Positions 6,287 through 51,627 of a stretch of DNA of 64,000 bases are shown here, one piece after another. Origin of the DNA: an uncultured Planctomycetota bacterium. Its GTDB lineage: Bacteria > Planctomycetota > Phycisphaerae > UBA1845 > Fen-1342. The DNA lies in the NCBI GenBank assembly GCA_900696525.1, contig CAADGL010000019.1:1-64000 (forward strand), written 5' to 3'. The translations under genes were made by a program, and so were the position numbers. How positions within the stretch are numbered: the first letter of the stretch is position 1; the number at the start of each line of letters is the position of its first letter. The notes below the pieces were generated by a model that had not been told where the DNA came from, made no database searches, and was given only the letters and a program-made list of their open reading frames with translations.

Positions 6287-7804
6287 TCAGCGCTCGCAGG
6301 CCTCGCAATGCGCGGCCAGGCGCTGCGCGAGCTCGGGTGAGAGCTGCTCCGCCGTGACGCGCCAGGTCCAGTTCCCGCTCGGCGTCGACGGCACGTTCAT
6401 CCGCGCGGCCGAACCCAGGCCGAGCAGGTCCTGCACCGGGACGATGGCCAGCGCGGCGGGTGAGGCGTACGCCGCCCGCAGCATGCTCCAGTGTATCTCG
6501 TCCGCGGCGCCGCCGACGTACGCGAGTACGCGCCGGGCTTCCGGGGCGCGCCGCTTCGCGAACCAGCCGGCGGTCGTGTCGTTGTCGTGCGTGCCGGTGT
6601 AGACCACCGCGCGCCGCGGGTGATTGTGCGGCTGGTGATAGCGGGCGCCTTCTGAGCCGGCGAAGGCGAACTGCAACACGCGCATGCCGGGCAGCCCGAA
6701 GTCGTCCCGCAGCTTCCAGACACCGGGCGTGACCGCGCCGAGGTCTTCCGCGATGATCGGGAGCCGACCCAGCGCCGCGCGAGCGCGCCCGAGCAACTGC
6801 CGTCCCGGCGTGCGGACGTACCGTCCGCGGCGCGCGTCGCGGGCGCCGCCCGGAACCTGCCACACGCGGTGCAGGCCGATGAAGTGATCGATGCGCACGG
6901 CGTCGAACAGCTCGAGGGCTCGGCGGAAACGGGCGATCCACCAGCGGAAGCCGTCGGCTGCGTGGCGCTTCCAGGCGTAGTGCGGATGGCCCCAGAGCTG
7001 GCCGGTTCGCGAGAAGTAATCCGGCGGGCAGCCGGAGACGACCGTCGGGCGGCCGGCGCGATCGAGCTGGAAGAGCTCCTGGCGGGCCCAGACGTCGCTG
7101 CTCTCGTGATCGACGAAGATGGGAATGTCGCCGATCAGCCCGACGCCGCGCGCGTGGCACGCCGTTCGGAACCGCCGCCACTGCCGGTCGAATTGACACT
7201 GCACGAACCGCTCGAAGTCGATCTCGGCGCGCAGCTCGCGCTGGGCCTGGGCGATGGCCGCCCGCTGGCGCCGGCGCAGGGGCGCGGGCCAGCCCGTCCA
7301 CGGGGCGGCGTGAACGGATGACACGGCGCGGAAGAGGGCGTAGTCGTCGAGCCACAGCCGGCCGCAGCGGCGCCGGAACTCCGCCAGCCGGTCGCGCCAG
7401 CGGCGCGGCCGGGCCGTTGCGGCGGCGTACGCCTTGCGCAGCAGCTTCCGGCGGAGGCGCGTCGCGCGGTCGTAGTTCACGCGGCTTGGCGACCCGCCGG
7501 CGGCCTCTTCCAGGTCATGGCGTTCGAGCAAGCCGTCGCGCCAGAGCAGCTCCGGACTGACGAACAATTCGTTGCCCGCGAAGGCGGAAGGCGAGGCATA
7601 AGGCGAGTGGCCCGGACCGATCGGGCCGATCGGAAGCATCTGCCACCACTGCTGCCGCGCCGATCGGAGAAAGTCGGCAAAGCTCAGCGCCGCCGGGCCG
7701 AGGTCGCCGACGCCCAGCGGCCCGGGCAGCGAGGTCAGGTGCAGCAGCACGCCGGCCGCGCGGCGCTCGAGCGGATGCGCGGCACTGTCGGCGTGCGGCT
7801 TCAT
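6287..7804 (-). CDS. malQ: 4-alpha-glucanotransferase (amylomaltase)
   Basis: A 505-residue GH77 enzyme that transfers maltooligosaccharide units between glucans. Conserved features are SPYASPSAFAGNELFVS near the start, GCPPDYFSRTGQLWG, RIDHFIG (nucleophile Asp), IAEDLG (acid/base Glu) and TGTHDNDTTAGW (third Asp). The start ATG at 7804 overlaps the glgB stop by four bases (ATGA, 7801-7804), so it is translationally coupled as the last gene of glgX-glgB-malQ. The reading frame is open far upstream of 7804, but that part is antisense-free overlap with glgB and is not used. Role here: recycling of short glucans made during glycogen debranching. Confidence 0.95.
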   Translation of the reverse strand: MKPHADSAAHPLERRAAGVLLHLTSLPGPLGVGDLGPAALSFADFLRSARQQWWQMLPIGPIGPGHSPYASPSAFAGNELFVSPELLWRDGLLERHDLEEAAGGSPSRVNYDRATRLRRKLLRKAYAAATARPRRWRDRLAEFRRRCGRLWLDDYALFRAVSSVHAAPWTGWPAPLRRRQRAAIAQAQRELRAEIDFERFVQCQFDRQWRRFRTACHARGVGLIGDIPIFVDHESSDVWARQELFQLDRAGRPTVVSGCPPDYFSRTGQLWGHPHYAWKRHAADGFRWWIARFRRALELFDAVRIDHFIGLHRVWQVPGGARDARRGRYVRTPGRQLLGRARAALGRLPIIAEDLGAVTPGVWKLRDDFGLPGMRVLQFAFAGSEGARYHQPHNHPRRAVVYTGTHDNDTTAGWFAKRRAPEARRVLAYVGGAADEIHWSMLRAAYASPAALAIVPVQDLLGLGSAARMNVPSTPSGNWTWRVTAEQLSPELAQRLAAHCEACER

Positions 7805-46147: not shown

Positions 46148-47107
46148 TCAGCGCTGCCGGACGAAGCTCTCCAGCGAGATTCCCGTCCGCGGGCGCACGG
46201 CTTCGATGTCTTCGAGGAAGCGGCGAGCATCCTGGTGATAGCCCGCCGTGGGCCGCAGGCCCGGAACGAGGCGCCGCCAGTAGGCGTTGAAATGCTCCAT
46301 CAGGACCTCGCGCAGGTACTTGGCCAGCATGCTGGCCAGGGCCACCGGCAGAAACGCCTGGTCGGCCTCGACGACGAACGTGATGCGCCACAGCGCCGCC
46401 CGGACGCGCAGCTCGTAGGCGCTGCGGTTGGGCGAGATATCCAGCTCGCGCAGCCCCGCGCCGGGAAACAAGGCCAGCAGCAGGTCGCGGTAGTTCGTGC
46501 GCCCGCCCAGGTGGTCGACGACCACGTGCAGCTCGTCGTCGCCCGCGGCGTTGGCCGACGCCGCCAGCAGGTCCAACACGTGCTCCAGCAGCACGGACGC
46601 CTTGTTGTCGGTCTGGGCGACGCGCTGGTTGAAGCGCCGCGGCGACACGGTTCGCGCCATGAGCCCGGCGCAGGCCACGCCCGCGCGCCGGCACTCGGCG
46701 GCAAGCCGGCCGGCGATCGCCTGGTACGCACCATGAACCGGATCGAGCGGCAGCGCCGGGTCGGCGGCCGCCTCCCAGGGTAGCGCCGTGTCCGCGTCAG
46801 ACGGGCAGCCGAGCGCCGCGCGCAGCTCGCCCAGCGTTCGGCAGGGCAGCCCCGCCGCCTGGGCGCACGCCAGCACCGGGCGCTCCAGCGAGCCGAGGCC
46901 GCGCTTGCGGTCGAAGACGCGCTTGGAGTCGTCGATGCGGAGCAGCGCGTCGCCGCGGCTGTCCGCGCGCCCCACGCAGCTCCGGAGCAGCTTCCAGAGG
47001 TCGGCTTGTGCGTGCTGCGGTGGGACGCGCCAGAGGCTGGCCGCGACGACCAGCGGTCCGAGCGTCGGCCCGTAGCCGGCTTCGTCGATGCCCGCGACCA
47101 ACGGCAT
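46148..47107 (-). CDS. rnhB: RNase HII-like protein, long form
   Basis: A 319-residue protein opening with GIDEAGYGPTLGPLVVAA, the RNase HII active-site strand (Asp8, Glu9). IDDSKRVFD fits the usual LDDSK block and VVVDHLGG the third acid; LASMLAKYLREVLM corresponds to the SIxAKVxRD helix, ending in AGYHQDARRF. Common RNase HII proteins have 200-260 residues; this form carries extra sequence between about 60 and 150. It would cut RNA in RNA/DNA hybrids. It is the last gene of the operon beginning at 49226, starting one base after the mlaE stop. Confidence 0.78.
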   Translation of the reverse strand: MPLVAGIDEAGYGPTLGPLVVAASLWRVPPQHAQADLWKLLRSCVGRADSRGDALLRIDDSKRVFDRKRGLGSLERPVLACAQAAGLPCRTLGELRAALGCPSDADTALPWEAAADPALPLDPVHGAYQAIAGRLAAECRRAGVACAGLMARTVSPRRFNQRVAQTDNKASVLLEHVLDLLAASANAAGDDELHVVVDHLGGRTNYRDLLLALFPGAGLRELDISPNRSAYELRVRAALWRITFVVEADQAFLPVALASMLAKYLREVLMEHFNAYWRRLVPGLRPTAGYHQDARRFLEDIEAVRPRTGISLESFVRQR

Positions 47108-49409: not shown

Positions 49410-50375
49410 ATGGCGACGCGGGGCGGACCAAAGGCCGAGGACCGGCCGATCGAGCTCCCGGAGTACGTGCGGCCGATGCTGGCGCGCAGCACGTCGGAGC
49501 CGTTCGATTCCGAGCGCCACCTGTTCGAGATCAAGTGGGACGGCACACGGGCCGTGGTGTTGGTTGACGGTCGGGGCATGCGGCTGTTCAACCGCCGGCA
49601 GGCGGACCTGCGTGGGCGATACCCGGAGCTCGAGGCGCTGCACGGGTTGCCGGCGGGCACGGCCCTGGACGGGGAGATCGTTGTGCTGTCGGGCGGCAAG
49701 CCGTCGTTCGCCAAGCTGGCGCAGCGCGAGCAGGTCTCCGAGCCGCAGCGGGTGGCGTTGCTGAGTCGCCGGCTGCCGGCGACGCTGGTGGTGTTCGATG
49801 TGCTGTATGCGAGCGGAAAAAGCGTGATGGCGCGGCCGCTGTCGGAGCGCAAGCCGCTGCTGGCGGAGCTCGTGCGCGGGCTGGGCAGCCCGCACGTGAT
49901 CGCCTGCGACTACGTCACCGAGCGCGGGCGACGGTACTTCGAGGAAGTGGAGCGCATCGGCCTGGAGGGCGTCATGGCCAAGCGGCTCGACAGCGCCTAC
50001 CAGCCGGGCAAGCGCACCGACGACTGGCTCAAGATCAAGGTCGCGCGTCTCGCCGAGCTCGACGTGATCGGCTTCACGCTCCAGGAGGGCACGCGCGACA
50101 CGGTCGGGGCCCTGCTGCTCGGCGAAAAGCAGGGCCGGGGCTGGCAGTTCCGCGGCAAGGTCGGCACCGGGTTCACCGAGCGCCAGCGGCTCGACCTGTA
50201 TCGCGAACTCAGCGGGCTGCCCGCGCTCGCCGCGCCGCCGCCCGGCGGTCCGCGCGACGGTGTCTGGCGCCGCTGTGGAAAACGCTGTCGCGTCCGCTAC
50301 TTCGAAATGACCGAGCACGGTATGCTCAGGGGCCCCGTGTTCCAGGGATGGACCGGCGATGAAAAGGACCCGTGA
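49410..50375 (+). CDS. ATP-dependent DNA ligase, LigD-ligase/LigC type
   Basis: A 321-residue ligase. The adenylation motif is FEIKWDGTRAV with Lys42. DGEIVVL (motif III), EGVMAKRLDSAYQPGKRTDD (motif IV) and WLKIK (motif V) follow, then an OB-fold (FTLQEGTRDTVGALLLGE, FRGKVGTGFT). It lacks the polymerase and nuclease domains of full LigD, and no Ku gene is present, so it is a stand-alone ligase of the LigC kind. It would seal nicks, probably in repair. Its last 17 bases overlap the start of the BRCT-HTH-TPR gene, indicating translational coupling. Confidence 0.93.
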   Translation: MATRGGPKAEDRPIELPEYVRPMLARSTSEPFDSERHLFEIKWDGTRAVVLVDGRGMRLFNRRQADLRGRYPELEALHGLPAGTALDGEIVVLSGGKPSFAKLAQREQVSEPQRVALLSRRLPATLVVFDVLYASGKSVMARPLSERKPLLAELVRGLGSPHVIACDYVTERGRRYFEEVERIGLEGVMAKRLDSAYQPGKRTDDWLKIKVARLAELDVIGFTLQEGTRDTVGALLLGEKQGRGWQFRGKVGTGFTERQRLDLYRELSGLPALAAPPPGGPRDGVWRRCGKRCRVRYFEMTEHGMLRGPVFQGWTGDEKDP

Positions 50376-51627
50376 GCCGCGCGAGCGCCCGCCCGTGACG
50401 CCGCCGAGTGACGCGGTTGAGCCGCGCCGCACCGAGTCTGCCGCCGTCGCGGCCGAGGCCTTCGATGCCGGCACGCGTCGCGCCGTGGCCTTTACCGGCC
50501 GCCTGGCCTCGATGAGCCGCCGGGCGCTCGCCGACGCGCTGCGCCGGCTCGACATCATCCCCGTCGAAGACGTGACCCGCCGAACCGCGCTGCTCGTGGT
50601 TGGCCAGCTTGGCTGGCCGCTGCGCGCCGATGGCACGCTCAATCACAAGGTGCAGCAGGCGCTGCGGCTTCAGGGCAGCGGCGGCGGCGTGCGCATCGTG
50701 GGCGAGCGCGATTGGCTCTGTGCCGCCGGACTCGCCGAGGCCGCCGCCGCGCTCGACGAGCGCCAGCGGGCGGAGTCGCTGGCGCCGCGGCTGGGATTGC
50801 CGGCGGCGTCTCTGCGGCAGTGGTTGCGGTTGGGGCTGCTGCCGGGTGATGCGCGCGGGTTTGTTCTGCGCGAGGTAGTGTCGCTGCGGGTGCTGATGGG
50901 GCTGGTGGCGCGCGGCGTCGATCGGCGCGTGCTGCGCGGCAGCCTCCAGCGTCTGCGGCCGGCGCTGCCGGAGGCGGAGGTGGCGTTGCGGCAGCTCGAT
51001 CGTCTGACGCAGCACGACGACGACGTGTTGGCCGAGCTGGACGTGTGCCGCGCCACGCCCGACGGGCAGATGATGCTGGGCTTCGCGGAGCACTCGTCGC
51101 TCGAAGACGCGCCGGTGGTGATCTCGTTCGCCGCGGGCGCCGCGCAGTCGCTGTCGGCGTCGGTGGAGCGGCTGACGTCGGACCAGTGGTTCGAGCGCGG
51201 GCGCCGGCTGGAGGAGCTGGAGCAGTACGAGGCCGCGGCCCGGGCGTATCGGGAGGCGCTCGCGGGCGAGTCGCGATTCCCGGAAGCGTATTTCAACCTT
51301 GGCAACACGCTGCGGGCGCTGGGACGAGCGGAGGCGGCGAGCGAGATGTACCTGCTGGCGCTGGCGCAGGATGCGACGCTGGCCTGCGCCTGGTACAACC
51401 TGGCGGACATCGCCGAGGAGGCGGGCCGCCTGGACGAGGCCGTCGCGTACCTCGAGAAGGCCCTCGAAGCCTGCCCCACCTATGCCGACGCGCACTTCAA
51501 CCTGGCCCACTGCCTCGAAGCCGCCGGCCGCAAGTCCGATGCGGAGCGCCACTGGGCCGGGTATCTGCGCTACGACCAGCAGAGCGAGTGGGCGACGCTG
51601 GCCCGCCGGCGGCTCGGACGCTCGTAG
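50359..51627 (+). CDS. BRCT-HTH-TPR fusion protein
   Basis: A 422-residue protein. Residues 40-125 resemble a BRCT domain: RAVAFTGRLASMSRRALADA, then DVTRRTALLVVGQLG, and a C-terminal helix starting RDWL. Residues 138-200 look like a MerR-type winged helix (LAPRLGLPAASLRQWLRLGL, LREVVSLRVLMGLVARGVD). Residues 275-415 hold at least four TPRs (QWFERGRRLEELEQYEAAAR; FPEAYFNLGNTLRALGRAEA; ACAWYNLADIAEEAGRLDEA; ADAHFNLAHCLEAAGRKSDA). The gene begins inside the ligase gene. A scaffold for DNA repair bound to DNA or chromosomal proteins is inferred; the fusion is not one I recognise as characterised. Confidence 0.85.
   Translation: MKRTREPRERPPVTPPSDAVEPRRTESAAVAAEAFDAGTRRAVAFTGRLASMSRRALADALRRLDIIPVEDVTRRTALLVVGQLGWPLRADGTLNHKVQQALRLQGSGGGVRIVGERDWLCAAGLAEAAAALDERQRAESLAPRLGLPAASLRQWLRLGLLPGDARGFVLREVVSLRVLMGLVARGVDRRVLRGSLQRLRPALPEAEVALRQLDRLTQHDDDVLAELDVCRATPDGQMMLGFAEHSSLEDAPVVISFAAGAAQSLSASVERLTSDQWFERGRRLEELEQYEAAARAYREALAGESRFPEAYFNLGNTLRALGRAEAASEMYLLALAQDATLACAWYNLADIAEEAGRLDEAVAYLEKALEACPTYADAHFNLAHCLEAAGRKSDAERHWAGYLRYDQQSEWATLARRRLGRS

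Follow-up and report, generated by a model that had tools for sequence, protein, structure and literature searches.

Most descriptions of bacterial end joining (NHEJ) give it two proteins, Ku and the multifunctional LigD. Stand-alone NHEJ-type ligases encoded beside Ku are known in archaea. Here we describe a locus in the window (the whole stretch of planctomycete DNA that was analysed, 64,000 nucleotides) in which a stand-alone ligase gene is followed by a gene for a BRCT–MerR–TPR protein, referred to simply as the partner. We consider it reasonably probable that the two are parts of a bacterial Ku-dependent NHEJ that has been rewired and split, the partner being most likely an adaptor.

Like canonical Ku–LigD NHEJ, the source genome possesses Ku, PE (phosphoesterase) and POL (polymerase), and its LigD has the PE–LIG–POL order of other three-domain LigD proteins. 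In contrast to the canonical system, the LIG (ligase) domain has decayed, sealing apparently lies in a separate gene, and a MerR–TPR accessory protein is encoded in the cluster. With LigD LIG domains and stand-alone NHEJ ligases (LigC-like enzymes, and the split archaeal NHEJ of the Methanocella type), the ligase shares its fold, its motifs and, in related loci, the Ku neighbour. Unlike these, the window ligase coexists with a PE+POL LigD of dead LIG, and its gene overlaps that of a BRCT–MerR–TPR protein. The eukaryotic ligase adaptors (XRCC4–LIG4, acting via the BRCTs of LIG4, and XRCC1–LIG3) are alike in role only, in that a component with a BRCT serves one particular ligase of end joining or repair; the homology is limited to the BRCT fold, the BRCT here belongs to the partner and does not occur in all clusters, and the complex is putative. 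In a comparative survey of bacterial NHEJ, Planctomycetota are not mentioned in the text (PMC7719229). Neither an NHEJ-linked MerR–TPR protein nor a naturally dead LigD ligase domain was found described in open-access full text. The stand-alone NHEJ ligase beside Ku is the known element of this arrangement; the proposed rewired Ku pathway and the protein associated with it appear to be new.

The ligase gene and its overlapping neighbour

Table 1. Features of the ligase–partner locus (positions in the window).
Feature	Position	Strand	Remarks
Stand-alone ATP-dependent DNA ligase, LigD-LIG type	49410..50375	+	321 aa; stop TGA 50373-50375
Gene overlap	50359..50375	+	17 bases, ligase stop within partner gene; relatives mostly 4-base ATGA overlap
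BRCT–MerR–TPR protein (partner)	50359..51627	+	422 aa; 17 bases shared with ligase gene
BRCT domain, RFC1/LigA type	50479..50733	+	about aa 41-125; profile, AlphaFold, Foldseek
MerR-like helix-turn-helix, next helices, family-specific GQ..F motif	50764..51087	+	about aa 136-243
TPR array	51178..51612	+	about aa 274-418; tandem TPR repeats found by profile, AlphaFold, fold search

The ligase ORF matched the Pfam profiles DNA_ligase_A_M (4e-33) and DNA_ligase_A_C (4e-13). Motifs I-VI were all intact (including I, III, IIIa, IV and V), the nucleotidyltransferase motifs reading EIKWDGTR, LDGEIV, EGVMAKR and WLKIK, and the C-terminal OB-fold domain was present. Among ligase models the protein scored highest with TIGR02779 (NHEJ ligase), at 215.7 bits, which is just below the cut-off of 227.75. 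The nearest solved structure was the ligase domain of Mycobacterium tuberculosis LigD (1vs0, 2e-30). As judged from its sequence, the window ligase is best placed in the LigD-LIG (NHEJ) type. The codon-position GC of both the ligase and the partner gene was typical for coding sequence in the GC-rich source genome. It may be noted that an ordinary RNase HII gene also lies in the window, at 46148-47107 (-) (Pfam 2e-12).

The first-pass annotation had placed the ligase stop 17 bases inside the next gene on the same strand, and this was confirmed. As translation of the partner could also start at its codon 13, a GTG (50395), the exact length of the overlap is uncertain. In about ten clusters the ligase and partner genes meet in a 4-base ATGA overlap. 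Since the adjacency recurs in many families, often with this overlap, the pairing is beyond chance. Profiles and adjacency supported the earlier description of a stand-alone ligase, here seen to be ATP-dependent, whose BRCT/MerR/TPR partner is co-expressed with it and conserved.

Domains of the partner protein

The AlphaFold model of the partner (pLDDT 85-89) showed a BRCT, a MerR-like domain and TPR helices. The TPR array is certain. A fold search with the whole model returned TPR proteins only. In searches with the full-length partner, unrelated TPR proteins dominated the matches, and the N-terminal part was taken as the query instead. A family profile was built with 20 relatives.

For the window copy alone the BRCT was weak by Pfam, while NCBIfam NF004844 matched aa 27-120 at 3.4e-7. 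The family profile matched the BRCTs of RFC1 (4.5e-8) and LigA (2.6e-7), and in Foldseek searches with the N-terminal part the BRCT domains of LigA and RFC1 ranked first, with modest E-values. The order of secondary structures in the model was b1-a1-b2-b3-a2-b4-a3. Hence the BRCT proposed in the first pass was borne out by profile search, and the fold agrees with it. In yeast Rfc1, residues T166, G167, R174 and K209 bind the 5' phosphate (PMC9359705). T46, G47, R54 and K97 of the window BRCT align with these positions, and this match favours a DNA-end-binding adaptor. The lysine varies among relatives, and in every copy sampled from one family (f32) the arginine is a histidine. By profile, fold and phosphate site, the domain thus resembles the class of single BRCTs found in RFC1, LigA (the NAD+ ligase) and PARP1; it differs from them in a family-specific GWPL..DG insertion, in the variable lysine, and in its fusion with MerR and TPR. 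The idea that the BRCT binds phosphopeptides was rejected, since the domains it matches best are single BRCTs that bind DNA and since its alpha-2 lysine is variable.

The BRCT was absent from several otherwise identical clusters. In the tree of the partner, BRCT-less and BRCT-bearing clusters were interleaved; therefore the domain has been lost or gained several times. The BRCT is dispensable across relatives, and MerR–TPR is the constant part. Because several clusters do without it, the BRCT cannot be essential, and its role as an indispensable recruiter of the ligase was rejected.

In the window copy alone the MerR domain was hardly matched (E-value 0.15), and its wing is shortened, a shortening that holds for the window's family. 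Relatives exceeded the Pfam MerR_1 cut-off, and the family profile matched the MerR domains of TnrA and GlnR (TnrA, 4e-7). With the MerR-like domain of the model, this spoke for the MerR-type helix-turn-helix of the earlier reading. Like the MerR domains of TnrA, GlnR and CarH, that of the partner has a helix-turn-helix and the following helix pattern by profile; unlike them, it sits between BRCT and TPR and has the short wing in the window's family.

On account of this domain, the main rival to an adaptor is a transcriptional regulator of end-joining genes, that is, a MerR repressor or activator that senses through the TPR array (sometimes also the BRCT), has its gene last in the operon it controls and does not act at breaks. 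Its nearness in sequence to the TnrA/GlnR regulators, the constancy of MerR–TPR beside a dispensable BRCT, and the place of the partner as the last, tightly coupled gene of the cluster would all suit such a regulator. We nevertheless regard it as unlikely: with the MerR wing deleted in the window's family, operator binding should be weaker, an operon regulator would be an odd place for a BRCT of the DNA-end-binding class, and the partner is kept where the cluster is split.

Ku, LigD and the decay of the LIG domain

The first-pass annotation had stated that Ku and LigD are absent. This held for the 64,000-nt window, where no Ku, PE or POL was found, but not for the genome, which encodes a single Ku (contig 11, 296 aa, 167 bits) and a single PE–LIG–POL LigD (contig 15, 753 aa; L035:6305-8566 (-), genome G000). 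Ku, LigD and the stand-alone ligase are on three separate contigs. In this LigD, PE (2e-44) and POL (4e-92) are still high-scoring. Its LIG domain is degenerate, with ELKLSGAR, LDGLLV and AGIVSKR in place of intact motifs, and the OB domain is missing.

The same decay was seen in other genomes. LIG was broken in all 14 genomes with the stand-alone ligase and in none of the 17 without it (17/17 intact). Fisher's test gave 4e-9; as it ignores the kinship of the genomes, this value overstates the real strength. Broken copies had lost the K or D of motif I, the E of motif III, motif V and the OB fold. Loss of KxDG in motif I took the form of ELKLSGAR in the source genome, of EMEFAGRR, EMRFEGRR and similar strings elsewhere, and of EIAVDGQP in G024, and DGE had become DGV, DGL or similar. 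The simplest reading of these motifs is that the separate ligase has apparently taken over sealing from LigD. LigD proteins of this type, with PE, POL and a degenerate LIG, are prone to misannotation as DNA ligase D. In one genome (G290; L259, L174) ligase and partner were intact, yet of Ku no more than a fragment was found, and LigD was broken; either the pathway may be in decay there, or the assembly may contain frameshifts.

Within the window's family (27 genomes), seven genomes carry the stand-alone ligase, each of them together with Ku. In four of these (G003, G010, G017, G024) Ku directly adjoins the ligase. The partner was present in six of the seven and in one genome without the ligase. 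G010 has Ku–ligase with no partner detected, and in G019 the partner is present while ligase and Ku were not found.

These results bear on a further proposal of the first pass, namely a ligase complex distinct from Ku/LigD end joining. The ligase is of the LigD-LIG type, Ku accompanies it throughout the family and is its neighbour in four genomes, and its presence tracks with LigD proteins whose LIG is dead; the proposal was not sustained. A ligase complex that works without Ku on a scaffold of its own, serving for example replication or nick repair, would be in keeping with the overlap of the ligase and partner genes, with Ku lying on a different contig in the source genome, and with the two families (f32 and f73) that carry the partner mostly without Ku. 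It is nonetheless highly improbable, given that constant company of Ku, its direct adjacency in several families, and the decay of LigD-LIG that follows the stand-alone ligase. The ligase very probably serves a split Ku pathway as its catalytic ligase.

Gene neighbourhoods and the proposed role of the partner

Gene neighbourhoods were surveyed in 392 Planctomycetota genomes; several of the genomes used are incomplete MAGs. The N-terminal part of the partner was detected in 50 of the 392, Ku in 47, and LigD-POL above the cut-off in 38. The pair was conserved beside ligases in several families, as the earlier reading required. The order Ku–ligase–BRCT–MerR–TPR was observed in G024, G071, G129, G176, G184, G205, G229, G381 and a Gemmataceae contig (L173). 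In G051, G126 and G151 the Ku–ligase cluster has a BRCT-less MerR–TPR protein, and in family f21 such a protein adjoins Ku. G042 and G084 have Ku–BRCT–MerR–TPR, an intact LigD and no stand-alone ligase; G061 has the same gene pair without the ligase, and LigD-POL was not found there. LigD was mostly tail-to-tail with the cluster, and in f21 divergent from Ku. Two tandem Ku genes were seen in G008 and G011 (L101-L104), where the stand-alone ligase is absent.

Might the adjacency be inherited synteny of no functional meaning, with the ligase being an end-joining ligase and the partner unrelated to it? The co-occurrence tests ignore relatedness, and in f32 glyA is conserved next to the partner, apparently as mere synteny. 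Against this, about a dozen families show the Ku/ligase linkage, and they differ in flanks and in gene order (Ku–lig–partner, Ku–partner, Ku divergent from LigD); the 4-base overlap is retained across those families, and co-occurrence persists where linkage is broken (G000, G017, G003). We therefore hold meaningless synteny to be very unlikely.

The families f32 and f73 stand apart. In 34 sampled genomes of these two families the partner was present, and Ku in only two; in the remaining genomes with the partner, Ku was found in 13 of 16. The f32/f73 copies (loci L264-L283) form one clade (100/100) among Ku-linked copies. As they are carried mostly without Ku, the partner can work outside end joining, and this would also fit a regulator with other targets. 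Those of f32 are often divergent from glyA. An attempt to read a function from the neighbours in the two families was given up, as glyA alone recurs, in f32, and looks like inherited synteny.

Outside Planctomycetota, a stand-alone ligase adjoins Ku in loci of Archaeoglobi, Methanothrix and Thermodesulfobacteriota. A check of ten genomes gave weak MerR matches only. On one Deltaproteobacteria contig (L197, near 6900-7078), Ku and the ligase are followed by the start of a MerR-like gene overlapping by 4 bases, within which the contig ends; this hints at a MerR partner outside Planctomycetota. In a Thermodesulfobacteriales MAG (L166:5438-7201), the gene after Ku–ligase resembles, by eye, a PolX-family polymerase.

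We propose the following scheme. Ku, encoded elsewhere in the genome, would bind the break, and the PE–LIG–POL LigD, its LIG domain dead, would supply phosphoesterase and polymerase. The stand-alone ligase of the window would seal the ends in trans. The partner would hold the ligase at the Ku-bound end by means of the DNA-end-binding BRCT, the MerR-type winged helix and the TPR array, which would bind peptides. The observed basis of the split-pathway reading is gene order, co-occurrence, intact versus broken motifs, and domain identities. Counted against it, and against the adaptor, are the three contigs in the source genome, f32/f73, G019, G010, the BRCT-less clusters and the variable lysine. 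On balance, the partner is probably, if with some reserve, an accessory protein tied to end joining, and the reading that suits it best is that of an adaptor whose DNA-end-binding BRCT is of the RFC1/LigA type. For the fuller claim, that BRCT–MerR–TPR is a new NHEJ accessory factor acting as an end-bound ligase adaptor and that LigD was repeatedly or anciently demoted to PE/POL, we put the chances at about even.

The arrangement found across planctomycete families is a ligase outside LigD, a LigD with end processing only, and a third, multi-domain protein that travels with Ku. If the partner is indeed an adaptor, bacteria would have in it a functional analogue of the ligase adaptors of eukaryotes. 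Such families offer a natural test of why the domains of LigD are normally fused, of how a separate ligase reaches Ku, and of whether bacteria have dedicated ligase adaptors.
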